From assembly GCA_005879535.1 (NCBI GenBank), contig VBKI01000053.1, positions 1 through 64,000 on the forward strand: a DNA stretch of 64,000 nt, in the 5' to 3' direction. The position numbers were made by a program, and so were the translations under genes. This document shows positions 24,506 through 36,704 of the stretch, piece after piece. This DNA is from Deltaproteobacteria bacterium. Its GTDB lineage: Bacteria; Myxococcota; Myxococcia; Myxococcales; 40CM-4-68-19. The notes beneath the pieces were generated by a model. The model was not told the DNA's origin. It searched no databases and saw only the letters and a list, made by a program, of their open reading frames with translations. Each line of letters begins with the position of its first letter. Positions within the stretch are counted from its first letter, which is position 1.

Positions 24506-26266
24506 ATGATCGGCGTCGTCCCTGCCCTGAACGCTTGCGAAGGCGAGCATTCGCGCGGTTTCACCTTCATAGGCGCCAGAGGTCCCGGCAAGGATCTCTT
24601 CGTTTCCTTTCATGATCTTCGCCTCGCCACCCAGCGGCGCGCCGCTCATTACGCGGCGGCCGGGATCGGGCGCGGCGACCGGGTAGCGCTGGTGGTACCC
24701 GAGGGAGAGCAGTTCATCCCCGCATTCCTCGGCGCGCTTTGGGGTGGATTGATCCCGGTACCGCTCTACCCGCCGGTCTCGCTCGGCAAGCTGGACGCGT
24801 TCATGGATGCCCTGGTGAGCATCCTCAACGTCGCGAAGCCCCGGATCCTGGTCACGACCGAGCGCGTCGCCAAGGTGCTGTGGTCGGCGGTCGGCCGGAT
24901 CCCGAGCATCGAGAAGGTGCTGACGACCGCAGAGTTGGCGAAGGATGCCGGCGCGCTTCCAGCCGCTGCCGACGTGCGCGACGACGAGGTGGCCTTCCTC
25001 CAGTTCACGTCCGGCAGCACCGCGCTCCCCAAGGGAGTGATGGTGACGCACGGAAGCCTGGCAGCGAACTGCGCGGCCATCGTGCGTGACGGACTGTGCG
25101 CCGACGGCGCGCACGACGTCGCCGTGTCGTGGCTGCCGCTGTACCACGACATGGGGCTGATCGGGTTCGTCATCGCCCCCATCTGCTTCCGGATCCCGGC
25201 AGTGTTCATCGCGACGATGAGCTTCATCAAGAACGCCACCATCTGGCTGGAGACTTTGCACAAGTACCGGGGGACGCTGACGTTCGCGCCCAACTTCGCA
25301 TACGCGCTGATCACCAAGCGGGCGAGGCCGGAGCAGATCGCGCGCTGGGACTTGTCGCGGATGCGCGTCTTTGGTTGCGGGGCGGAGCCGATCAATCCGG
25401 AGACGATGCGCGCCTTCGTCGCCGCCATGGCGCCCGCCGGGGTGAAGCCCGAAACGCTTCTCCCTTGTTATGGAATGGCCGAGGCGACGCTGGCCATCTC
25501 GTTTGTTCCCATCGAGGAGCCTCTCCAGACCGACCGCATCGACCTCGACCGGTATCACCGCGACCACAAGGCCGCGCCCGTCTCCGACAGCGCACCCTTT
25601 CTCGAAGTGGTGAACTGCGGTCGCACTTTTCCCGGCCACGAGCTTTCCGTCCAGGACGACGACGGCCGCATCCTCCCCGACCGCCACGTCGGCGAGGTGT
25701 GCCTCCGGGGCCCGAGCGTCACCGCCGGCTACTGGGAGAGTCCGGAAGCCACGAAGGCGACATTCCGCGGCGGGTGGCTGCGGACCGGCGATCTCGGCTA
25801 TCTCGTCGCCGGCCGCGTTTTCGTCTCCGGCCGGATCAAGGACATCCTCATCGTCAACGGGCGCAACTACTACCCCCAGCGGATTGAATGGCTGGTGGAC
25901 GAGATCCCCGGCGTGCGCAAGGGAAGCTCGGTGGTCTTCACCCGGCCCGGCTCCGCGTCCGAGGAGATCGTGGTGGCGGTCGAGTCGCGCACCGCCGATC
26001 CGGCGGCGCTCAGGGCGCAGATCGTCTCGCGCGTCGGCGAGGAGTTCCAGCTCGCCGTCTCCGACGTGGCGCTGGTCGCGCCCGGTGCCCTCCCGAAGAC
26101 GTCCTCCGGCAAGCTGCAGCGGAGGAAGACGCGCGAGCAGTACCTGAACGGCACCATTGGACGCGTCGGCCGCGGAGGCAGCACGCGGATTGCGGTGGCC
26201 AGGCACCTCGCGCTGTCGCTGGTCGGGCGGGCGCGCCACGAAGTCAGGAAGCTCTTCGGAGGTTGA
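24506..26266 (+). CDS. Fatty acyl-AMP ligase (FAAL)
   Basis: A 586-residue ANL-superfamily enzyme. The ATP-binding loop is QFTSGSTALPKGVMVTH; the FAAL-typical WLPLYHDMGLIG follows, then CYGMAEATLAISF, RTGDLGYL and the C-terminal lysine region LPKTSSGKLQRRKTREQYL. FAALs activate a fatty acid to acyl-AMP and pass it to an acyl carrier protein, loading PKS and NRPS lines, rather than to CoA. The Met with FTFIGARGPGKDLFVSFHDL starts the family normally. The free ACP gene begins 3 bp after its stop and the PKS lies beyond, so it most likely primes that PKS. Chain length specificity cannot be read from the sequence. Confidence 0.93.
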   Translation: MIGVVPALNACEGEHSRGFTFIGARGPGKDLFVSFHDLRLATQRRAAHYAAAGIGRGDRVALVVPEGEQFIPAFLGALWGGLIPVPLYPPVSLGKLDAFMDALVSILNVAKPRILVTTERVAKVLWSAVGRIPSIEKVLTTAELAKDAGALPAAADVRDDEVAFLQFTSGSTALPKGVMVTHGSLAANCAAIVRDGLCADGAHDVAVSWLPLYHDMGLIGFVIAPICFRIPAVFIATMSFIKNATIWLETLHKYRGTLTFAPNFAYALITKRARPEQIARWDLSRMRVFGCGAEPINPETMRAFVAAMAPAGVKPETLLPCYGMAEATLAISFVPIEEPLQTDRIDLDRYHRDHKAAPVSDSAPFLEVVNCGRTFPGHELSVQDDDGRILPDRHVGEVCLRGPSVTAGYWESPEATKATFRGGWLRTGDLGYLVAGRVFVSGRIKDILIVNGRNYYPQRIEWLVDEIPGVRKGSSVVFTRPGSASEEIVVAVESRTADPAALRAQIVSRVGEEFQLAVSDVALVAPGALPKTSSGKLQRRKTREQYLNGTIGRVGRGGSTRIAVARHLALSLVGRARHEVRKLFGG

Positions 26267-26269
26267 GGG

Positions 26270-26530
26270 ATGGGCGAGAGGATCGACGTCATCGAGATGT
26301 TCAAGCAGGCGGCCTTCGAGGTCGACAATCGTCGCCTGCCCGACCTGAAGGCGGATACGCCGATCGCCACGCTGGGGATGGACTCGGTGGCGGTGATGGA
26401 GCTCGTCGCCTGGTTCGAGGAGAAGCTCGGCGTCAGGATCCCCGACGAGGAGCTGTCGAAGATCCGCACCGTGCGCGACCTGCGCGACACGATCGCGCGG
26501 CTTTCGCCGGATAAGCAGTTCGCCGCCTGA
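26270..26530 (+). CDS. Stand-alone acyl carrier protein
   Basis: An 86-residue acidic ACP. The phosphopantetheine attachment site is LGMDSVAVMEL with Ser39; the four-helix pattern is clear (DVIEMFKQAAFEV, ELVAWFEEKLGVRIPDEEL, TVRDLRDTIARL). It is 3 bp downstream of FAAL and would receive the activated fatty acyl chain and hand it to the ketosynthase of the PKS, whose protein has no loading domain. It would need a phosphopantetheinyl transferase from elsewhere. The stop sits in a stable hairpin shared with the convergent gene. Confidence 0.93.
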   Translation: MGERIDVIEMFKQAAFEVDNRRLPDLKADTPIATLGMDSVAVMELVAWFEEKLGVRIPDEELSKIRTVRDLRDTIARLSPDKQFAA

Positions 26531-26551
26531 TCAGCGCTGCCGCTGATCAGG
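26526..26551. terminator. Hairpin at convergent gene ends, possible bidirectional terminator
   Basis: A perfect 11-bp inverted repeat, CCTGATCAGCG-CTGC-CGCTGATCAGG, spans both stop codons: the ACP TGA at 26528-26530 and the GST TGA (TCA at 26531-26533 on the plus strand). It would form a stable stem in transcripts from either side. There is no T-tract on either strand, so it is not a textbook intrinsic terminator; it could block 3' exonucleases or pause convergent transcripts. Confidence 0.55.
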
Positions 26552-27157
26552 ATGGGCCTTGGCGAAGGCGTCGAGCTTCATGCAAGCGTCGTAGATGCGG
26601 CGCGTGCGCGGGAAGCCGGCGATGTCGACCTTGTACCGGATCGCGTTCGCCACCTGAGGCACCAGGAACACATCCGCCGCCGTGGGCGCATCGCCGTGGC
26701 AGTACGGTCCGCTCTCCGGCAACGCCGACTCCAGCCCGCGGAAGCCCTCGTGGATCCAGTGCGCGTACCAGCGGTCGCGCGCCGCATCGTCGGCCTTCAG
26801 CTCGCGCGCGAGGTAGCGCAGCACCCGCAGGTTGTTGAGCGGATGGATGTCGCAGGCGACGAGCTGCGCGATGGCGCGGACGCGCGACCTCGCCAGCGGC
26901 TCTTTGGGCAGCAGCGGCGGCTCGGGATGCGTCTCGTCCAGATACTCGACGATCGCCATCGACTCGAAGAGGAACTGTCCCGGCGCGAGCTCCAGCGCGG
27001 GAACGGAATGCATCGGGTTGACCCGCCGGTACTCCTCCGTCAGGTGCTGGTTCGCCCGCAGGTCGAAGACCACCGACTCGTACGCGAGGCGCTTGAGGTT
27101 GAGGGCGATGCGGACGCGGAACGCAGCGGAGGAGAGCACTGCTTCGTAGAACTTCAT
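26531..27157 (-). CDS. Maleylacetoacetate isomerase-like glutathione transferase (zeta class)
   Basis: A 208-residue GST. The N-terminal thioredoxin-like domain has the zeta-class SSAAFRVRIALNLKRL with the serine pair, HSVPALEL with the cis-proline and ESMAIVEYLDE; the helical C-domain contains PLNNLRVLRYL and YCHGDAPTAADVFLVPQV, matching MaiA. MaiA isomerises maleylacetoacetate to fumarylacetoacetate in tyrosine/homogentisate breakdown. The ATG lies in an ATGA overlap with the upstream epimerase stop, so they are coupled. No other tyrosine-degradation gene is near, so a role in the adjacent lipid pathway is possible but unproven. Confidence 0.85.
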   Translation of the reverse strand: MKFYEAVLSSAAFRVRIALNLKRLAYESVVFDLRANQHLTEEYRRVNPMHSVPALELAPGQFLFESMAIVEYLDETHPEPPLLPKEPLARSRVRAIAQLVACDIHPLNNLRVLRYLARELKADDAARDRWYAHWIHEGFRGLESALPESGPYCHGDAPTAADVFLVPQVANAIRYKVDIAGFPRTRRIYDACMKLDAFAKAHPDQRQR

Positions 27158-28137
27158 AGCCACCCCTCGGCGCGGTACCACTTCACCGCTTCCTGCACTC
27201 CTTGTGCCCACTGCACGCGCGGCTCCCAGCCGAGCTCGCGCCTCGCGCCCGCGCCGGAGCAGACCCAATGCGGCTGCGTCAGCTCGTTCACCTTGTCGAG
27301 CGTCAGCATCTGCGCCGTATTGGTCATCTTTCCCCAGAGCTGCGTCGCCGCTGCCGCCACCTTGACGACGCCGAGCGGCATTCCAAAGCGCACCAATGCG
27401 CGGCGGCCGAGCGCAGTCTCGATCTCCTTGAGGGCGTCACGCCAGACGTAGACCGAGCCATCGTCGACGAAATAGCTGCGGCCAGAGGGCACGCCCTGCG
27501 CGTGCAGCACCCGCACGACCGCCGCCGCGCAGTCTTCGACGTAGACGACGCTGAGCGTGTTCGTCCCGTCGCCGGTCATCGGCAGCACGCCGTTGCGAAC
27601 GGAGGTGAAGAACGCCAACGTCTCGCGGTCGCGCGGGCCGTAGATCAGCGGTGGTCGCACGACGGTGACGTGAAGCCGGTCCTTCGCCGCCAGCACCGCC
27701 CGTTCCGCCTCGAGCTTGCTCCGCCCGTAGTGCGTAACCGGCCGGGGCTCGACGTCATCGGCAACCGGCGTGCCGTCGGTGCTCGGTCCCACGGCCGCAA
27801 GCGACGATACGTACACGAACCGCGGGACGGGCCGGCGCAGCGCCGCCTCGAGCAGGTTCCTGGTGCCCTGGGTGTTCACCTCGAAGAACTCCGCTGGCCG
27901 CCGCGCCTTCACGATGCCAGCCACGTGCACGACGGCGTCCACGCCGTCCACGGCCGCGCCGAGCGACGCGCGATCCTCGATGGCGCCGGGAGCCAGCTCG
28001 ACGCGCGGCAGCCTGTCCAACACCTTCCGCTCGCTGCGCGGGCGGACCAGCGCCCGGACTACATGGCCTTCCGTCGCCAGCCGCTCAGCGACGAACGACC
28101 CGAGAAAGCCTGAACCCCCGGTCAGCAGGACCCGCAT
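27154..28137 (-). CDS. NAD(P)-dependent epimerase/dehydratase-type reductase
   Basis: A 327-residue extended short-chain dehydrogenase. The nucleotide-binding loop is LLTGGSGFLGSFVAERL; the catalytic Tyr-Lys is THYGRSKLEAERAV with Ser in VYVSSLAAVG. It resembles the 3-beta-hydroxysteroid dehydrogenase/epimerase branch. In Caulobacter a reductase of this superfamily (CerR) reduces 3-ketosphinganine, which makes this gene a candidate for reducing the alpha-amino ketone expected from the neighbouring PKS. This link is inference. It is divergent from the PKS gene (118 bp apart) and overlaps maiA by 4 nt. The start is the Met directly before the Rossmann strand. Confidence 0.85.
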   Translation of the reverse strand: MRVLLTGGSGFLGSFVAERLATEGHVVRALVRPRSERKVLDRLPRVELAPGAIEDRASLGAAVDGVDAVVHVAGIVKARRPAEFFEVNTQGTRNLLEAALRRPVPRFVYVSSLAAVGPSTDGTPVADDVEPRPVTHYGRSKLEAERAVLAAKDRLHVTVVRPPLIYGPRDRETLAFFTSVRNGVLPMTGDGTNTLSVVYVEDCAAAVVRVLHAQGVPSGRSYFVDDGSVYVWRDALKEIETALGRRALVRFGMPLGVVKVAAAATQLWGKMTNTAQMLTLDKVNELTQPHWVCSGAGARRELGWEPRVQWAQGVQEAVKWYRAEGWL

Positions 28138-28197
28138 CGCGCGCCCGTATAACCCAAGTGGCCGCCGGACGGCGGAAAAGGTCGAGAAGAACGATCC

Positions 28198-28226
28198 TTG
28201 ACGTGTAGCATCAAAGGGCCTTAAAC
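28198..28226 (+). promoter_or_regulatory. Promoter of the PKS gene
   Basis: TTGACG at 28198-28203, a 17-bp spacer, and TTAAAC at 28221-28226. The expected transcript start is near 28233, giving a leader of about 23 bases with a GGAGG ribosome site at 28247-28251 before the TTG start at 28256. It differs from the FAAL promoter by one base in the -10 hexamer. Confidence 0.6.
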
Positions 28227-28255
28227 GTCGCTCGGCAGGCTGTTTTGGAGGCGGT

Positions 28256-31200
28256 TTGGAGATAGCGATCGTCGGGCTGGGGTGCCGTTTCCCCGGCGCC
28301 CGGGACCCACTCGCGTACTGGGAGCTCATCCGCAGCGGCACGGTCGTCTTCCGGCCCATCCCGGCGTCGCGCTGGGACCATTCCCGGTTCTACGACCCGA
28401 CCACCCGCGTTCCCGACAAGGCGTACATCGACAAGGGCGCCTTCCTCACCGACGAGGAGCTGCGGGAGTTCGCCTCGCTCCACTATGGGATCGCTCCACG
28501 GCGGATCCAGGTGACCGACCCGCAGCACCGGCTGCTGCTCGACTGCGTGAGCTCCGCGCTGCAGGACGCCGGGTACGAGCGACGCCCTTTCGAGCGCACC
28601 CGCGCCGGCGTCTTCATCGGCGCGAGCGTCAGCGAGCACAAGGAGTTCCTCCTCTCCCGCATCCGCGCCGTGCAACTCTTCGACGGCGCCTTCGGGCGCG
28701 CCCTTTCCGGACCGGAAGCCGACAACCTTCGCGACGCGCTGATCGAGCACGTGGTGCCGATGCGGGCCTTCTCGATGCCCGGCAACCTGCTCAACATGGC
28801 CGCCGCCATCGTCGCCCAGACATGGGACCTGGGCGGCCCCGCGCTCTCGGTCGACGCGGCCTGCTCCTCGGCGCTGGTCGCCACGCAGCAGGCCATCGTC
28901 AACCTGCGCGGCGGCCAGATCGACCTCGCGATCGCGGGTGGGGTGTACCTGAACCTGCTGCCGGACAACCTGGTGTGCTTCAGCCGCATCGGGGCGCTGT
29001 CCCGCCGTGGTGAATGCCGTCCCTTCGACGCCGGCGCCGACGGATTCGTGATGGGCGAAGGCGCCGGCGTGGTGGTGCTCAAGCGCCTCGACGACGCGGT
29101 TCGCGACGGGGATCGCATCTACGCCGTGGTGAAGGGAGCGTCGGCGAACAACGACGGCCGCAGCGAAGGGCCGATGACGCCGCGCCAGGGCGGTCAGCTC
29201 GAAGCCTTGCGGATGGCATATCGCGATGCGGCCATCTCTCCCACGAGCATCGGTTACCTCGAGGCGCACGGAACTGCCACGACCGTCGGCGACGTCGTCG
29301 AGGTGGGAGCGTTGCGCCAGCTCTTCGACGAGGCGGGATGGACGGCGGGCGGCGGCATCCGCACGGCGCTCGGAAGCGTCAAGGCGAACATCGGACACAC
29401 CATGTCCGCGTCCGGCATCGCGGGTCTGATCAAGACGGCTCTCGCGCTCCACCACGGAAAATTGCCGCCGCAACCGGGTGTCGCCGAGGAAAATGCGAAG
29501 CTCGAGCTGGGAGCCGGGCCGTTCTTCCTGCCGAGAGCCGAGACGCCGTGGGAGAGGAACGGGCGTCCGCGCCGCGCCGGCGTCAGCTCGTTCGGGTTCG
29601 GCGGCACCAACGTGCACCTGGTGCTCGAGGAGGCGCCGCAGCCGGCCCAGCCTCGCCGCACGCTTCCCGCGCCGGGCAAGGCGCGCGCCGAGCTGTTCCT
29701 GCTCGGCGGCGCTCGCGCCCCGGTGGTCGCGAAGTTCGCGCGGCAGATCGCTGCTTCCCTCCCCGGTCTGAGCCGCGAAGGGCGCTCGTTGGCCGACGTG
29801 GCGTACACGCTCTCGCAGCGCACGCACGGCGATGCCCGGCTCGCGCTGGTGGCGGACTCGTTCGACGTCCTCGCCGAGAGACTGCTCGCGTCCGCGGACG
29901 CGCTGGAGAAGCGCGGCGACGGCGTGGCGGACCGGATGGCGCATCCGGAGCCCTCGGTCCCCGTCCAGCTCTTTCCGGGCGCGGTGTTCGCGCAGGGGCC
30001 GTTCGAGAACCGGAAGGTCGCCCTGCTCTTTCCCGGCCAGGGCGCGCAGAAGGTCGGGTTGCTCCGCGAAGCGTACGAGCAGATACCAGCCTTCCGCGAA
30101 AAGCTCGATCAGCTCGATGCGTCCATCGCCGACCTGCATCCGCGCATCGGCGGATCGCTGCGCGGCTTCCTCCATGCGGAGCCGTCCGCGGAGGCCGAGA
30201 GACGCCTGACGCGCACCGAAGTCTGCCAGCCGGCGATGGCCGCCGTCGGCCTTGCCCTCCACGCGCTGCTGCACAAGCTCGGCATTGGCGGCGACGTCGC
30301 GGTCGGGCACAGCCTGGGCGAATTCGCGGCCGCGGGCGCAGCCGGATTGATTGGCGCGGAAGATGCCGTCCGACTGGTGTCACAACGCGGACTGGCCATG
30401 GTGGACTTGCCGCTCGCCGACGCGGGGGGCATGGCGAGCGCTGCCGCGTCTGCGCAGGAAGTCGCGGATGCGCTGCGCGGTATCGACGGAATCGTCGTCG
30501 CCAACCTGAACCACCCGAATCAGACGGTCATCTCGGGAACCACCGCCGCCGTGAACGCCGCGAGCACGAAGCTGACGGAGCGCGGTATCGCGGTGACGTC
30601 GCTGGACGTCTCGCACGCCTTCCATTCGCCCTTGATGGAGGGAGTCGCCGACACCATGCGCGCCCTGGTCGCCGATCTGCCGCTGGATCGCGCGGCGATC
30701 CCGGTGGTCAGCGCCATCACCGGCAAGCCCTACGCCGGCGACGAGCGCGACGTGTGGGTGCGGCACGCGACGGCGCCGGTAGACTTCGTCTCCGCACTTC
30801 GGGCGACGGCGGCGCTCGGCGCCCGCATCTTCATCCAGGTCGGCGCGGGCGGCGTGCTGACGTCCTTCGTGCGCGCGACGCTCCCCGAGAGCGAGCGGAC
30901 GGTGAACGTGTCCTTGGCATCCCGCGAGGACGACGGCCTGCAGCAGCTCGCTCTCGCGCTAGGGCACATCTGGGCAGCGGGCATCGAGCTGAACGCAGCC
31001 CCGCTCTTCGAGGGACGGGATGCCGGGCTCATCACCTTGCCGCCCACAGCGCTCGATACGCAGCCGTACTGGGTCGTCGAACGCCCGCAGGTCCCCGCAG
31101 AGCCGTTGCGGCTGCCCACGGCAGCGCAGGAGATGACGCAGATGGATCCGTTGGTGGCGCTGTTCCGCGAGCAGGTCGCTCTGTTGCAGCAGCAGGCGAA

Positions 31201-34200
31201 GGTGCTGGAGCAGCAGGCAGCGGCGCTGGCTGGAAAGGGAGTGGCGCTGCCGCAGCTCCCGGCGATCCCGCAGCTTCCGCAAAGCGCGTCGGCAGCACCG
31301 CCGGCGTCCCGGCCTGTCGAGCTCGCCGCCGCCGAGGCGGTAAAGCCGTTACCCCCGTCCGAGGAGCGGGTGGCGAAGGCGATCTTCGCGTCCGTCGCCC
31401 GCATCAGCGCGTTTCCGCTGGAGGCCATCAAGCCCTCGCAGACGCTCGCCGGCGATCTCGGCTTCGACTCGCTGATGACCGTCGAGCTGGACGGCGACGT
31501 GAACAAGGCGTTCCCGGGCTCCGGCGGACTGCCGCGGAACCTGCTCGGGCCGCAGACCAGCGTACAGGACATCGTCGAGCACGTGGCGCGGGCCGTCGCG
31601 CAGCCGCATGCGCCCATCGCTCCGGTGCTTTCGCCCATCCTCGGCGAGATGGCGAGCGAAGGGCGCGAGCTGCTTCCATTCGCCCCCTCGTTCGTCGAGG
31701 CGAATCTCGGCACGCCGGCGGCGGAGAACCCGTTGCCCAAGCGCCTGTTGCTCACGCGCGATCCGCTCGGCGTCGCGGACGCGCTCGCCGCGCTCCTCAA
31801 CGACAATGGCCACGACGCAATCGTCGGCGAGCCTGGAGACCCGCTGGAGAACATCGGCGGCGTGATCCATCTCGCGCCGCTCGGCCGTGGGGAGTCGGAG
31901 GTCGAGCCAGGGTTCAAGGCGGTGCTGGAAATGCATCGGCTCGCGCGGGCGCAGGCCGGGGCCGCCTCCGGCGGCACGTTCGTGGTCGCCGTCCCCGGGA
32001 CCGACGAGATCGACGCCGCCCTGGCCGGCTACGTGAAGGCCTTGGCGCGCGAGCGCACCGACGAGCTGGTCAAGTGCGTCGAGTTGCGCAGCGGGGACGG
32101 AGCTGGGGCCATGGCGAACGCGCTGTTCGCCGAGCTGCGCTCGGGCAACGCCGCCGCCGAGGTGCGCTGGGCAGGCGGAACGCGATACGAGCCGGATCTG
32201 GTGCCGGCCGCAACCGGCGAGCCCGTCGAGATCGGCTCCGGCGACGTCGTCCTGGTGACCGGTGGAACCCGTGGCATCGGGTTCAAGCTGGCGCAAGCGC
32301 TCTCCGAGCGGGGAGCGGCGGTGGCGCTGGCAGGCCGGACGCCCCCTCCGGCGCTGCCGCCACGGGCCGTATTCGTGCAATGGGACGTGACGAAGCCGGC
32401 GGCAACCGCTCTCGACGACGCGCGGGCGCGGCTGGGAAAGTTCACCGCCATCGTGCATGCCGCCGGAATCACCGAGGACGGTCCGGCCGCGGATGCGCGG
32501 GACGAGTCCGTCGAGCGCGTGCTTGCGACGAAGGTCGCCGGTTTCTGGGGCGCGGTCCTGGCCACGATGCAGGATCCGATCCGCGCCGTGGTTGCGGTTT
32601 CGAGCTGGGCGGGCCGCTTCGGAAACGCCGGGCAGACTTCGTACGCCGCCGCGAATGCGGCGCTGTCGCACGCCGTTGCGTCGCTTGCCCGCAAGCGCCC
32701 TGGCGTCCGGGCATCGTCCCTGGAGTATCCGCCCTGGGAAGGGACGGCGATGGTGGCGAAGATTCCGCCGCTCGTGCGAGCCGCGCTCGCCGAGCAGGGG
32801 GTGCCGTTCATCGACGACGCAGCGGGGATCGCGGCGTTCCTCTCGGCGCTGCGCGGCGGCTGGTCCGGGCCCGTCCTGCTTGCGCACTCTCGTCCCGCCC
32901 GCCGGATTGCGCACAAGGTTCGCATGCAGGTGTCGCGAGCCGAGCATCCGTACCTCGAAGACCATCAGCTCGCCGGTCAGCCGGTGCTTCCCCTTGCGGC
33001 AGCCCTCGACGTCGCCGCGTATGCGGCGGCGGAAGCGATCGGCACCTCCGGAGCGCCGCTCCTGCTCCGCGATTTCCGGCTGCGTCAACCCATCCGCATC
33101 GCCGACGCCGCCCAGTTCACCGTCTCCGTGAGTGGGTCGAACGAGCTGGCCGTGTCGCTGTCCTCCGCTGCTGCAGGAGCGCCGCGGGCGTTCTCGCGCG
33201 CCCCCGCTTACACGGCATTCGTCACGCCCGCCGCCGACGTCGCTTCCGCCTTGAGCTCCGCCCTTCCCGCCCCGGCAGCGATGGCTCTGCCCGAGCTGCC
33301 GATGACGCTGGACGAGTTCTACGGCGGCTTCACCTTCCACGGTCCGCGGATGCGCGCGATCGAGTCCATCGAGCAGATGTCGCCGCAGGGCATCGTCGGT
33401 TGGGTGCGGACGAGCAAGCCGGCCAACTGGATCCGCAATCCGCACCGGTCTTCGTGGACCGTGGATCCGCTCGCGGTCGACGGCGCGTTCCAACTCGCCG
33501 CGTACTGGGCGTGGTCCCACCTGCAACGGGCGGGGTTTCCCATCGGCATCGAGGAGTTCGTCCAGGTCGCTCCGCTGGGCGAGGGCCCGGTGCGCGCCTC
33601 GCTCACGCTCGAGCAGAGCGGCGGCGACGAGGTCCGCGGCACCATCGTGCTGCAGTCGCGCGACGGCAGGGTGGTGGCCGTTGCCCGCGGCGTGCAGGGG
33701 GAGTTCAAGCACCGCGATCCGCGCTTCCTCATCGGCCGCACCTCGCCGCTGAAGACGGCTCCCCCGGCTCCGGAGCCGAAGCCGCCGGCGGTCGACGAGG
33801 CGACGTATCGCATCGAGCAGTTCCCCGAGGTCCAGGAGCTGGAGCAGCGGCTCGGCCTCGCCACTGCGTTCGGCCTGCGCAATCCGTACTTCAACGTCCA
33901 CGAGCGCGTCACCAACGACACTTCGGTGATCGGCGGCCGGACGGTGATCAACTGGTCCAGCTACAACTACCTTGGCCTGTCTGGCGACCCGAACGTCACC
34001 CGGGCCGCGCAGGAAGCGGTCGCGCGGTACGGCACCAGTGTCTCCGCGAGCCGCGTCGCCTCCGGCGAGAAGCCGCTGCACCGCGAGCTCGAGCAGGAGC
34101 TGGCCGCGCTGCTCGGCACGGAGGACAGCGTCGTCACCGTGTCCGGCCACGGCGTCTTCGTCACCACCATCGCCACGCTGGTGAAAGACGGCGACCTCGT

Positions 34201-35032
34201 GTTGCACGACGCGCTGGCACACGACTGCATCGTCTCCGGCGCCAAGCTGTCGGGCGCGAAGCGCCGGCCGTTCCCGCACAACGACTGGCGCGCGCTGGAG
34301 AAACAGCTCCAGCAGCTCCGGCCGCACTACCGGCGCGTCCTCATCGCCATCGAGGGCGTGTACTCAATGGACGGGGACTTCCCCGATCTGCCGCGCTTCA
34401 TCGAGCTGAAGAAGAAGTACGGCTGCCTCCTCCTGGTCGACGAGGCGCACTCCATCGGCGTGATGGGGAAGACCGGAGCTGGAATCGGCGAGCACTTCGG
34501 CGTGAACCGCGCCGACGTCGACCTCTGGATGGGGACGCTGAGCAAGAGCTTCGCCTCCTGCGGCGGCTACGTCTGCGGCAGCAAGCAGCTCGTCCAGTTC
34601 CTCAAGTACAGCGCCGGTGGTTTCGTGTTCAGCGTGGGCATCTCGCCGGCGAACACCGCCGCGGCGTTGGAGGCGCTGCGGCAGCTCAAGGCGCATCCGG
34701 AGAAGGTGGCGCGCCTGCACGAGCGGGCGTCGCTGTTCCTCCGGCTGGCGAAGGAGAAGGGAATCGACACGGGCTTCTCGGCGGAGAGCGCGGTCATTCC
34801 GGCCATCCTGGGGAACTCGCTGCACGCGCTTCAAGTCAGCGATGCCCTCAAGCAGCGGGGAATCAACGTGCAACCGATTCTCTACCCCGCCGTCGAGGAA
34901 ACCGCGGCGCGCCTCCGGTTCTTCTGCACCGCCACGCACACCGAGCAGCAGATCCGCGAGACCGTGGAAGTGCTGGCGGAAGAGATCGCGCGGGCGCGGG
35001 CCGAATCCGGCGAGGCGACCGGTACGGCTTAA
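28256..35032 (+). CDS. Type I PKS with fused alpha-oxoamine synthase: KS-AT-ACP-KR-DH-AONS
   Basis: A 2258-residue multidomain enzyme. Ketosynthase about 1-430 with Cys203 (DAACSSAL), His338 (EAHGTA) and His381 (NIGHTM). Acyltransferase about 590-900 with Ser686 (GHSLGE) and HAFH at 787-790, predicting malonyl selection. A coiled, Gln/Pro-rich linker, then ACP with Ser1072 (GFDSL). Ketoreductase about 1330-1530 with GGTRGIG at 1336 and Tyr1463. Dehydratase about 1560-1830 with HxxxGxxxxP at His1570 and DGAFQ at Asp1742. From about 1850, a PLP-dependent alpha-oxoamine synthase like KAPA synthase or serine palmitoyltransferase, with Lys2097 (LSKSF) and LVDEAHSIGVMG. There is no enoylreductase and no thioesterase, so the AONS domain probably releases the chain as an alpha-amino ketone. 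ACP before KR and DH is an unusual order. TTG start, set by GGAGG 4 bases upstream and by the KS beginning at residue 2. Confidence 0.95.
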   Translation: MEIAIVGLGCRFPGARDPLAYWELIRSGTVVFRPIPASRWDHSRFYDPTTRVPDKAYIDKGAFLTDEELREFASLHYGIAPRRIQVTDPQHRLLLDCVSSALQDAGYERRPFERTRAGVFIGASVSEHKEFLLSRIRAVQLFDGAFGRALSGPEADNLRDALIEHVVPMRAFSMPGNLLNMAAAIVAQTWDLGGPALSVDAACSSALVATQQAIVNLRGGQIDLAIAGGVYLNLLPDNLVCFSRIGALSRRGECRPFDAGADGFVMGEGAGVVVLKRLDDAVRDGDRIYAVVKGASANNDGRSEGPMTPRQGGQLEALRMAYRDAAISPTSIGYLEAHGTATTVGDVVEVGALRQLFDEAGWTAGGGIRTALGSVKANIGHTMSASGIAGLIKTALALHHGKLPPQPGVAEENAKLELGAGPFFLPRAETPWERNGRPRRAGVSSFGFGGTNVHLVLEEAPQPAQPRRTLPAPGKARAELFLLGGARAPVVAKFARQIAASLPGLSREGRSLADVAYTLSQRTHGDARLALVADSFDVLAERLLASADALEKRGDGVADRMAHPEPSVPVQLFPGAVFAQGPFENRKVALLFPGQGAQKVGLLREAYEQIPAFREKLDQLDASIADLHPRIGGSLRGFLHAEPSAEAERRLTRTEVCQPAMAAVGLALHALLHKLGIGGDVAVGHSLGEFAAAGAAGLIGAEDAVRLVSQRGLAMVDLPLADAGGMASAAASAQEVADALRGIDGIVVANLNHPNQTVISGTTAAVNAASTKLTERGIAVTSLDVSHAFHSPLMEGVADTMRALVADLPLDRAAIPVVSAITGKPYAGDERDVWVRHATAPVDFVSALRATAALGARIFIQVGAGGVLTSFVRATLPESERTVNVSLASREDDGLQQLALALGHIWAAGIELNAAPLFEGRDAGLITLPPTALDTQPYWVVERPQVPAEPLRLPTAAQEMTQMDPLVALFREQVALLQQQAKVLEQQAAALAGKGVALPQLPAIPQLPQSASAAPPASRPVELAAAEAVKPLPPSEERVAKAIFASVARISAFPLEAIKPSQTLAGDLGFDSLMTVELDGDVNKAFPGSGGLPRNLLGPQTSVQDIVEHVARAVAQPHAPIAPVLSPILGEMASEGRELLPFAPSFVEANLGTPAAENPLPKRLLLTRDPLGVADALAALLNDNGHDAIVGEPGDPLENIGGVIHLAPLGRGESEVEPGFKAVLEMHRLARAQAGAASGGTFVVAVPGTDEIDAALAGYVKALARERTDELVKCVELRSGDGAGAMANALFAELRSGNAAAEVRWAGGTRYEPDLVPAATGEPVEIGSGDVVLVTGGTRGIGFKLAQALSERGAAVALAGRTPPPALPPRAVFVQWDVTKPAATALDDARARLGKFTAIVHAAGITEDGPAADARDESVERVLATKVAGFWGAVLATMQDPIRAVVAVSSWAGRFGNAGQTSYAAANAALSHAVASLARKRPGVRASSLEYPPWEGTAMVAKIPPLVRAALAEQGVPFIDDAAGIAAFLSALRGGWSGPVLLAHSRPARRIAHKVRMQVSRAEHPYLEDHQLAGQPVLPLAAALDVAAYAAAEAIGTSGAPLLLRDFRLRQPIRIADAAQFTVSVSGSNELAVSLSSAAAGAPRAFSRAPAYTAFVTPAADVASALSSALPAPAAMALPELPMTLDEFYGGFTFHGPRMRAIESIEQMSPQGIVGWVRTSKPANWIRNPHRSSWTVDPLAVDGAFQLAAYWAWSHLQRAGFPIGIEEFVQVAPLGEGPVRASLTLEQSGGDEVRGTIVLQSRDGRVVAVARGVQGEFKHRDPRFLIGRTSPLKTAPPAPEPKPPAVDEATYRIEQFPEVQELEQRLGLATAFGLRNPYFNVHERVTNDTSVIGGRTVINWSSYNYLGLSGDPNVTRAAQEAVARYGTSVSASRVASGEKPLHRELEQELAALLGTEDSVVTVSGHGVFVTTIATLVKDGDLVLHDALAHDCIVSGAKLSGAKRRPFPHNDWRALEKQLQQLRPHYRRVLIAIEGVYSMDGDFPDLPRFIELKKKYGCLLLVDEAHSIGVMGKTGAGIGEHFGVNRADVDLWMGTLSKSFASCGGYVCGSKQLVQFLKYSAGGFVFSVGISPANTAAALEALRQLKAHPEKVARLHERASLFLRLAKEKGIDTGFSAESAVIPAILGNSLHALQVSDALKQRGINVQPILYPAVEETAARLRFFCTATHTEQQIRETVEVLAEEIARARAESGEATGTA

Positions 35033-35670
35033 AGAAGTCGTAGCGAAAGCGCCTTCAGCACCGCGCGCGTGCGGTCGCGCACCCAGAGCTTGCCGAGAAT
35101 GCTGGCGACGTGGTTCTTCACCGTCCGCTCGGCGACGCCCAGCGCGTCGCCGATCTCGCGGTTCGAGTAGCCGCCGGCCAACAGCCGCAGCACTTCCCGC
35201 TCCCGCGCGGTGAGGTCTTCCCTCACCTCGTCGTGTCTTTCGCCCGTTTGCAACGAGGCGAGGCCGCGCAGCACCGTGTCGCTGACGGCGGGTTTGAACC
35301 AGGTTCCGCCGGCGGCGACGGCGCGGATGGCCTCGCCGAGCTCCTGGGGCGAGGCGTCCTTGAGCAGGTAGCCCCGCGCTCCGGCCCGGAGGGCGGCGAG
35401 GAACGCGTCCGCGTCGTCGAAGGTGGTGAGGACGATGCAGCGGATCGGATTCGCGTCCGCCCCCAGCTCGCGCAGGACGGCGATTCCGTCGGCGCGCGGC
35501 ATGCGCACGTCGAGGAGCGCGACGTCCGGCCGGCTCCGGCGCAGCATCTCGACCGCCTCCGCGCCATCGCGCGCCTCGCCCTCGACGCGCAGGCCGCCGT
35601 CCAGCTCGAGCACCCGGCGGAGCCCCTCGCGGACCAGGGTTTCGTTCTCCACGATGGCCACGCGGATCAC
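35029..35670 (-). CDS. NarL/FixJ-type response regulator
   Basis: A 213-residue two-component response regulator. The receiver domain has the phosphoacceptor Asp54 in ALLDVRMPRADG, and TTFDDADAF and YLLKDAS follow; the C-terminal LuxR helix-turn-helix is LTAREREVLRLLAGGYSNREIG with VKNHVASIL. Its GTG start overlaps the kinase stop (GTGA). It converges on the PKS gene: the two stop codons overlap in a CTTAAG-like palindrome. It could regulate the lipid cluster, but this rests only on position. Confidence 0.92.
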   Translation of the reverse strand: MIRVAIVENETLVREGLRRVLELDGGLRVEGEARDGAEAVEMLRRSRPDVALLDVRMPRADGIAVLRELGADANPIRCIVLTTFDDADAFLAALRAGARGYLLKDASPQELGEAIRAVAAGGTWFKPAVSDTVLRGLASLQTGERHDEVREDLTAREREVLRLLAGGYSNREIGDALGVAERTVKNHVASILGKLWVRDRTRAVLKALSLRLL

Positions 35671-36704
35671 GAAGCGCTCCGCAGCGGCACGCTCGCGCGC
35701 ACGGCGAAACCGGCTCCGGAGTCGACGGTCAGCGTGCCGCCTGCCGCCTCCACCCGCTCCCGCATTCCCCGCAGCCCGTTTCCCGTCCGCAGCTCGGGTG
35801 CTCCTTCTCCGTCGTCGCGGGCGCGCAGCTCGAGCATGCCGTTGCGCTGCACGAGCTCGAACCAGAGGTTGCTCGCGGATGCATGGCGGGCGGCGTTGGT
35901 CGCGATCTCCTGCGCGCACCGGAGGATGGCGGTGGCGCAGAGAGGATCGCGCACGGAAAGCGAGGCGGGCGCCTCGACATGGATGCGCGGGGTGGGAAGC
36001 TCCTCGGCGATGGCGCGCAGCGCGACGCAGAGATCGACCCGTTCCGGGTCGCGCAGCTCTTCGACGGCGCCGCGCACCTCCGCGAGCAGGCCGCGGGAGA
36101 GATCCCGGGCGGCCGCCAGCGCTTCGCCGCTGCGGTCGGCGACCTCCAGGTTGAGCCGCAGCGCGGTCAGATGGTGGCCGAGGCGATCGTGCAGCTCGCG
36201 GGAGATGCGCAGCCTCTCCGCCAGGCGCTCGTTCTCGAGCTGCAGCTCCTGCGTCCGCGCCAGGCGCCACATCCCTTCCGCCGCGAAGTACGCGAGCAGC
36301 TGGAAGCCCAGGTACGGTGGGGCAAGGAGCAGCGCCGCTCCCCGGTTCCAGTGGATGGCGATGGCGGCGAACAGCGCCGCGCTCTGAAGGGCAATGGCGG
36401 CGAGACCTGCCCGGCGCGAGGTCCTTCCTCCGAGTTGGAGCGCGACCAGCACCAGCAGCGCGCCTTCGAACCCGTCGCACAGGATCAGGACGAGCGCGAT
36501 CACGGCCGCGGCCTGCGGAACGATCCAGAGCAGCCGTCCGGTGCGCAGCGCCAGCGCGAGAACGACGCCGAAGGCGACGTATGCCGCGGACCATGCGGCA
36601 AGCCGCCATGGCTCCTGCGCGCCACGGATGAAGATCGGGAGCCCGACCATCACCCAGACCGCGGCGCCGCCTGCCGCGATGAGCCTGCGCAGCTCCCTCG
36701 GCAT
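35667..36704 (-). CDS. Membrane sensor histidine kinase, DesK/NarX (HisKA_3) type
   Basis: A 345-residue kinase with about five or six N-terminal membrane helices, then HisKA_3: ISRELHDRLGHHLTALRLNL with the phosphoaccepting His, and a HATPase_c domain with NAARHASASNLWFEL and GNGLRGMRERVEAAGG. Multi-helix sensors of this type often respond to membrane state (DesK) or dissolved signals. The start was put at the Met before the first helix. It is cotranscribed with the response regulator through a GTGA overlap and diverges from the ankyrin gene. Confidence 0.9.
   Translation of the reverse strand: MPRELRRLIAAGGAAVWVMVGLPIFIRGAQEPWRLAAWSAAYVAFGVVLALALRTGRLLWIVPQAAAVIALVLILCDGFEGALLVLVALQLGGRTSRRAGLAAIALQSAALFAAIAIHWNRGAALLLAPPYLGFQLLAYFAAEGMWRLARTQELQLENERLAERLRISRELHDRLGHHLTALRLNLEVADRSGEALAAARDLSRGLLAEVRGAVEELRDPERVDLCVALRAIAEELPTPRIHVEAPASLSVRDPLCATAILRCAQEIATNAARHASASNLWFELVQRNGMLELRARDDGEGAPELRTGNGLRGMRERVEAAGGTLTVDSGAGFAVRASVPLRSAS

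Follow-up and report, generated by a model that had tools for sequence, protein, structure and literature searches.

The dihydroceramide genes of Caulobacter and E. coli BL21 are five: aasR (a fatty acid-acyl carrier protein ligase), acpR, spt, epi and aca, the last of which is yghO in E. coli (PMC9386255). The enzymes CerR and bCerS have been described in PMC11087976. A polyketide synthase (PKS) can also provide sphingoid bases. The SgaAB system of Pseudomonas fluorescens MYb115, published in 2025, combines a PKS with an alpha-oxoamine synthase (AOS) of proven serine palmitoyltransferase (SPT) activity on L-serine, SgaC is its proposed ketone reductase, and Peters et al. regard what it makes as a secondary metabolite (PMC12134224). 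Pyridoxal phosphate (PLP) fold-type I domains in PKS and nonribosomal peptide synthetase proteins were surveyed in 2013, one example being the A-CP-AOS protein of Blastopirellula marina (PMC3870968). Here we analyse a stretch of 64,000 nucleotides from a Deltaproteobacteria bacterium of the Myxococcales (GCA_005879535.1, contig VBKI01000053.1), called the window below, in which a fatty acyl-AMP ligase (FAAL), a free acyl carrier protein (ACP) and a PKS ending in an alpha-oxoamine synthase domain (AONS) lie close together.

We propose that this PKS-AONS protein replaces SPT in ceramide (sphingolipid) synthesis and supplies the long-chain base, with a probability of about 0.7, because of the domain order, the catalytic residues, the gene neighbourhood, the exclusion of SPT and the co-inheritance of an N-acyltransferase. 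The cassette resembles the start of a membrane ceramide pathway more than a stand-alone secondary metabolite cluster. The genes of the locus and the domains of the PKS are:

24506..26266, plus strand: FAAL, AasR-like (Pfam AMP-binding, 2.3e-63)
26270..26530, plus strand: free ACP of 86 aa (PP-binding, 1.2e-12)
26531..27157, minus strand: glutathione S-transferase (GST), maleylacetoacetate-isomerase-like (NCBIfam maiA, 255.5 bits, cut-off 171)
27157..28137, minus strand: extended-SDR "epimerase" (EPIM), candidate ketone reductase of the CerR/epi type (Epimerase 1.3e-39, 3Beta_HSD 2.3e-33)
28256..35032, plus strand: PKS of 2258 aa with a TTG start, KS-AT-ACP-KR-DH-AONS (Pfam)
28259..29632, plus strand: ketosynthase (KS) domain, PKS residues 2-459 (Pfam); Cys (DAACSSAL), His (EAHGTAT) and His (NIGH) conserved in the cassettes
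30026..30949, plus strand: acyltransferase (AT) domain, malonyl-type (Pfam Acyl_transf_1, 1.3e-45); motifs GHSLGE and HAFH
31382..31585, plus strand: internal ACP domain (PP-binding, 8.6e-5); GFDSL motif conserved
32249..32740, plus strand: ketoreductase (KR) catalytic domain (Pfam KR, 3e-23); GGxxG, Ser and Tyr conserved
32894..33694, plus strand: dehydratase (DH) domain, double hot dog (PKS_DH_N 1e-12, PS-DH 3e-10); HxxxGxxxxP and DxxxQ conserved
33797..35029, plus strand: C-terminal AONS, SPT-like release domain (Aminotran_1_2, 1.3e-49)

Pfam and the open reading frame (ORF) translations place the FAAL, the free ACP and the PKS where the initial annotation had them, and bear out its description of a PKS that begins with a KS, ends in an AONS and lacks a thioesterase. 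That description overlooked the KR and DH domains, and it left out GST and EPIM, two minus-strand genes between the ACP and the PKS, with EPIM and PKS divergently oriented. Neither an enoyl reductase (ER) nor a thioesterase was found in the PKS with Pfam, and no ER was found among the cassette neighbours examined. The free ACP starts 4 bases past the FAAL stop, adjoins the FAAL in relatives too, and carries the phosphopantetheine site DSV in its translation. The best NCBIfam model for the FAAL is PRK09192 "fatty acyl-AMP ligase" (499 bits, under the cut-off of 600), and its predicted role is to activate a free fatty acid and load it onto the ACP. In a catalytic-motif alignment of the window PKS and 17 relatives (the row of locus L042, a wrong-frame ORF, was left out), the KS, AT, ACP, KR and DH motifs are kept, with small departures in single relatives.

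The same cassette, FAAL, ACP and KS-AT-ACP-KR-DH-AONS, recurs in the family of the window genome and in at least six genera of a Myxococcaceae-like family, with 60-85% AONS identity; other families in the order of the window genome resemble Myxococcaceae and Anaeromyxobacteraceae. Because it recurs in relatives the order is not due to chance, and mis-annotation of the domains was likewise rejected by the Pfam and NCBIfam matches together with this recurrence.

Several of the genes resemble the known dihydroceramide genes. Compared with E. coli BL21, the window FAAL matches AasR (ECD_02851) at 33% (blastp, E 2e-101), the AONS matches SPT at 34% (E 7e-56), and EPIM matches epi (ECD_02852) at 32% (E 5e-32), yet EPIM falls in a separate subgroup of the EPIM tree. 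The free ACP gave no significant pairwise match to AcpR. EPIM is the sole match in the window genome at E<1e-20 to the EPIM of a relative's SPT operon (42%). In SPT-bearing Myxococcales the SPT is followed by an N-acyltransferase of the aca/bCerS type (GNAT), often together with an EPIM-type gene, in one same-strand run. The GNAT of the window genome is found at G000:C47:67424-68557 and is 39% identical to E. coli YghO/aca (E 1e-84), which was used as the named reference, NCBIfam having no GNAT model.

No stand-alone SPT was found in the window genome (G000), i.e. no NF047600 match at E<=1e-100. Two other AONS-type genes in this genome are a BioF that passes the equivalog cut-off and a KBL/BioF-like gene that passes none, and a canonical SPT elsewhere in the genome was rejected. 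Among 117 relatives, with canonical SPT defined by about 411 bits or more on NF047600, SPT and the cassette occur together solely in G032, a metagenome-assembled genome (MAG) with 6% contamination and 1290 contigs. In a wider set of 195 Myxococcota genomes, with cassette-type AONS defined by 600 bits or more, 39 have a cassette-type AONS, 89 have SPT and one, a contaminated MAG, has both (Fisher 6e-11, ignoring phylogeny). A different, lower-scoring PKS-AONS type is present in six genomes, all six with SPT, which shows that the mere presence of a PKS-AONS is compatible with SPT.

The GNAT is co-inherited with both routes. Almost every good SPT genome and almost every good cassette genome carries it, and most genomes with neither lack it; the Anaeromyxobacter-like genus g15 has a single weak match (1.8e-35). 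Only one well-assembled genome (G110) has a GNAT without an SPT or cassette match, and there a GNAT-GNAT-FAAL-ACP-KS locus runs off the contig end, i.e. it holds a cassette cut by the assembly. Cassette and GNAT are contiguous in L142, L145 (with EPIM), L148-L150, L161, L187 and L200, and in L251, from another class, PKS-AONS, ACP, FAAL, EPIM and GNAT are all contiguous. In the GNAT tree the cassette-linked GNATs of G052 and G076, plus that of G048, are sister to SPT-operon GNATs of the same family. The reduced, Cystobacterineae-like genomes G030, G085 and G108 (2.1-2.7 Mb; loci L043, L044 and L168) have a cassette-type AONS and two GNAT genes, and the 7-kb PKS is kept along with two GNATs in a 2.3-Mb and a 2.7-Mb reduced genome. 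No EPIM match was found in G030 and G108.

These observations bear on whether the locus is a secondary-metabolite cluster whose signalling or defence product is a free long-chain amino ketone or amino alcohol, with the absence of SPT a coincidence. We consider this improbable. An accessory cluster unrelated to ceramide is disfavoured by the near-complete exclusion of SPT, by the co-inheritance of GNAT and its physical linkage in many relatives, and by the retention of the cassette in strongly reduced genomes. On the other side, the GNAT is unlinked in the window genome, genomes with the other PKS-AONS type have SPT as well, and relatives in Nocardia, Rhodococcus and Mycobacterium (L170, L181-L183, L188, L209, L210) have FAAL and KS-AT-ACP-AONS, without KR or DH, and no GNAT partner in five of five genomes tested. 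The product of these actinobacterial relatives is therefore probably different, and together with the type that coexists with SPT they indicate that the AONS clade has non-ceramide uses somewhere.

Among named genomes 310 relatives were found, including ones with other architectures. The simplest form of the set is an acidobacterial locus (L207) with EPIM, FAAL, a fused ACP-AONS and GNAT, and no PKS. Planctomycetes (L153, L158, L169, L173, L180, L197, L205 and others) have a fused FAAL-ACP-AONS of about 1170 aa, also with no PKS, and an aca/bCerS-type GNAT is present in ten of ten planctomycete genomes tested; a ceramide route free of SPT is possible there. In cyanobacteria a PKS occurs with a discrete AONS. 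A 26,159-aa open frame in G156 turned out to be masked Ns.

By its sequence, the AONS is a member of the AOS family. The initial annotation had named loss of the PLP or substrate residues as a sign against its proposal, and the alignment shows them kept: the PLP lysine, the Asp-His pair and the stacking His are retained (equivalents of H137, D209, A211, H212 and K243). The serine contacts in the published model of 3A2B are H137, S242 and R366 (PMC3870968), and these residues are also present. The PLP lysine is followed by a Ser, as in SPT/LCB2 and unlike BioF/KBL. The closest PDB sequences are the Sphingobacterium SPT structures 8guh/3a2b (1e-68), which also rank first when an AF2 model of the domain is used in a fold search; the model is moderate (pLDDT 71), its matches are all AOS enzymes, and SPT is told apart from them by rank order only. 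A position inside the bacterial SPT clade does not hold in the AONS tree, where the bacterial SPTs form a clade of their own elsewhere (support 100/98). This tree is unrooted with long branches, and LCB1, ALAS and CqsA were not sampled. The clade of the window AONS has its own signature, His-Asp/Asn at the position where SPTs carry His-Ala.

Two further observations concern this domain. Eukaryotic LCB2/SPTLC2 is on the side of the PKS/FAAL-linked AONS in the tree, not with the bacterial SPTs (99/96), and both share the SYNYLG motif. In L053 / L047 (G034) the PKS has two tandem AONS domains, the first of which has its stacking His changed to Arg and is probably degenerate.

The distinct clade and its signature would also suit an AONS that takes alanine or glycine instead of serine and produces a 1-deoxy sphingoid base, and fumonisin-type PKS release uses alanine according to the survey (PMC3870968). 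We give this a small chance. The serine contacts of 3A2B are retained, the Ser next to the PLP lysine is that of SPT/LCB2, the proposed replacement of SPT falls in a pathway whose usual first substrate is serine, and SgaB prefers serine almost exclusively (PMC12134224). The co-inheritance of GNAT and the exclusion of SPT point to serine, and the amino acid, left unknown by the initial annotation, is no longer entirely open.

The proposed replacement of SPT would proceed as follows. The FAAL would adenylate a free fatty acid and transfer it to the free ACP. The KS would accept the fatty acyl chain and condense it with malonyl on the internal ACP, provided by the malonyl-type AT. KR and DH would convert the product to a trans-2-enoyl thioester, at which the chain would stay because there is no ER. 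The PLP-serine carbanion of the AONS would attack the thioester with loss of CO2, releasing a 2-amino-1-hydroxyalk-4-en-3-one of the 3-keto-sphingosine type. EPIM, CerR/epi-like, would reduce the ketone, and the aca/bCerS-like GNAT, encoded elsewhere in the genome, would N-acylate the base. The 4,5 double bond would in this way come from polyketide dehydration instead of a desaturase.

With KR and DH conserved and ER absent, one extension would most simply give a 3-keto-4-ene base (3-ketosphingosine). We nevertheless put forward the 4-ene, sphingosine-type base only tentatively. One alternative, which we also regard as a possibility short of probable, is that the DH is skipped, or that the double bond is reduced by a trans-acting ER, leaving a 5-hydroxylated or a saturated base. 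There is precedent for such enoyl reductases in other PKS systems. Arguing the other way, the window and the compared cassettes keep the DH His and Asp motifs, and neither the PKS nor the cassette neighbours examined include an ER. In addition, a methyltransferase of the cyclopropane-synthase family (CMAS, PF02353) accompanies the cassette in L035-L042, L141, L142, L147, L149, L161 and L200, and lies immediately 3' of the PKS in many Myxococcaceae cassettes. Enzymes of this family act on C=C bonds, so its position fits an unsaturated product. In L030, a relative of the same genus, a CMAS gene (L030:1023-1874) is located between FAAL and ACP, and none was found in the window's own genome.

The number of extensions is a separate matter. 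The order KS-AT-ACP-KR-DH is known from iterative PKSs (PUFA and enediyne synthases), so the PKS might work iteratively and make a very-long-chain or polyunsaturated ceramide base, with the FAAL giving a short starter or none. The PfaA (PUFA synthase) model of NCBIfam matches the PKS at 620 bits, under its cut-off of 1010, with the KS-AT region alone as the best stretch. SgaA is described as iterative, with C24-C28 sphinganines as products (PMC12134224). However, nearly all intact cassettes have a dedicated FAAL and ACP next to the PKS, a sign that a ready-made fatty acid is loaded, and relatives with FAAL, ACP and AONS and no PKS exist (L207, Planctomycetes), from which it would follow that the AONS can act on a FAAL-loaded chain directly. 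We regard iteration as less likely than not.

The context thus supports the core of the initial annotation, a sphingoid-like product made by FAAL loading, PKS extension and decarboxylative release with an amino acid, and the detail of the product changes. Instead of a saturated amino ketone, a 4-ene base or one derived from the 3-hydroxyacyl chain would be expected from the conserved residues of KR and DH, and the single extension it assumed does not follow from a domain order that is also found in iterative PKSs.

Several points count against a replacement of SPT. The AONS is under all NCBIfam SPT cut-offs (312/640, 275/500 and 218/670 bits) and outside the canonical bacterial SPT clade, in a separate 33-row clade (support 100/95). 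Its conserved active-site residues are common to other family members, and its serine specificity is inferred from context; the product and the activity are in turn predicted from gene content. EPIM appears not to be clearly orthologous to the SPT-operon EPIM in the EPIM tree, which does not support it as a proven CerR orthologue, and most Myxococcaceae cassettes are without a linked EPIM. The GNAT of the window genome is unlinked to the cassette and in a divergent subgroup, and no clear GNAT was found in two deltaproteobacterial cassette genomes (L165, L176). Finally, the exclusion counts are not independent events and may go back to few separate replacements.

Around the cassette, a LuxR-type response regulator and a histidine kinase (window 35029-36704, minus strand) lie end-to-end with the PKS, the stop codons about overlapping, and it is possible that this pair regulates the cassette. 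The GST gene is kept beside EPIM in close relatives only (L030, L048) and is probably a bystander. A phosphopantetheinyl transferase (ACPS) gene adjoins some cassettes (L044:14181-14852, L043, L035, L042). Many opposite-strand ORFs in the window were rejected as spurious high-GC frames.

SPT serves as a marker for sphingolipid production. Should PKS-AONS or FAAL-ACP-AONS be able to take its place, the count of sphingolipid-making bacteria is too low, and Planctomycetes may be among those missed. It would also be a testable case of an assembly-line enzyme taking over a core membrane-lipid step, and a desaturase-free route to unsaturated sphingoid bases. As a broader and more speculative picture, which we hold with some reserve, a fatty-acid-primed PKS module may have replaced SPT at the entry to ceramide in several Myxococcota lineages, with KR and DH making the 4,5-trans double bond before serine is added and no sphingolipid desaturase, and FAAL-ACP-AONS with GNAT in Planctomycetes and an acidobacterium may be a second, simpler route free of SPT.

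The open-licence literature searched gave no account of a FAAL-primed PKS-AONS fusion that replaces SPT beside bacterial ceramide genes, and no FAAL+AOS or FAAL+SPT system. Compared with the dihydroceramide set, FAAL, ACP and the genomic GNAT correspond to aasR, acpR and aca, EPIM is the candidate counterpart of epi, and the AONS is homologous to spt. There the SPT is stand-alone, whereas here a KS-AT-ACP-KR-DH-AONS protein would take its place and add extension, reduction and dehydration before the serine condensation. In the fungal PKS pathways to sphinganine analogues (fumonisin, sphingofungin) a polyketide chain is also released by an alpha-oxoamine synthase and an amino acid; there the releasing enzyme is a protein of its own, and what is made is a toxin or an SPT inhibitor, unlike a ceramide base of the producer's own (PMC12134224). 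The surveyed A-CP-AOS proteins share an AOS-type domain after a carrier protein and the serine-contact residues, but the 2013 survey has no KS-AT-ACP-KR-DH-AOS protein in its table and gives the A-CP-AOS proteins no product, and no connection with ceramide genes was found in the sections consulted (PMC3870968). PKS-made sphingolipids are already known from SgaAB (PMC12134224), and the FAAL-primed PKS-AONS fusion would be a new variant. By the published description of SgaA and SgaB, a PKS is partnered with an AOS in both; SgaB is a discrete protein, whereas the AONS here is fused to the C-terminus of the PKS, loading is by a FAAL and a free ACP, and the cassette appears to take the place of SPT in a ceramide set with epi and aca homologues.

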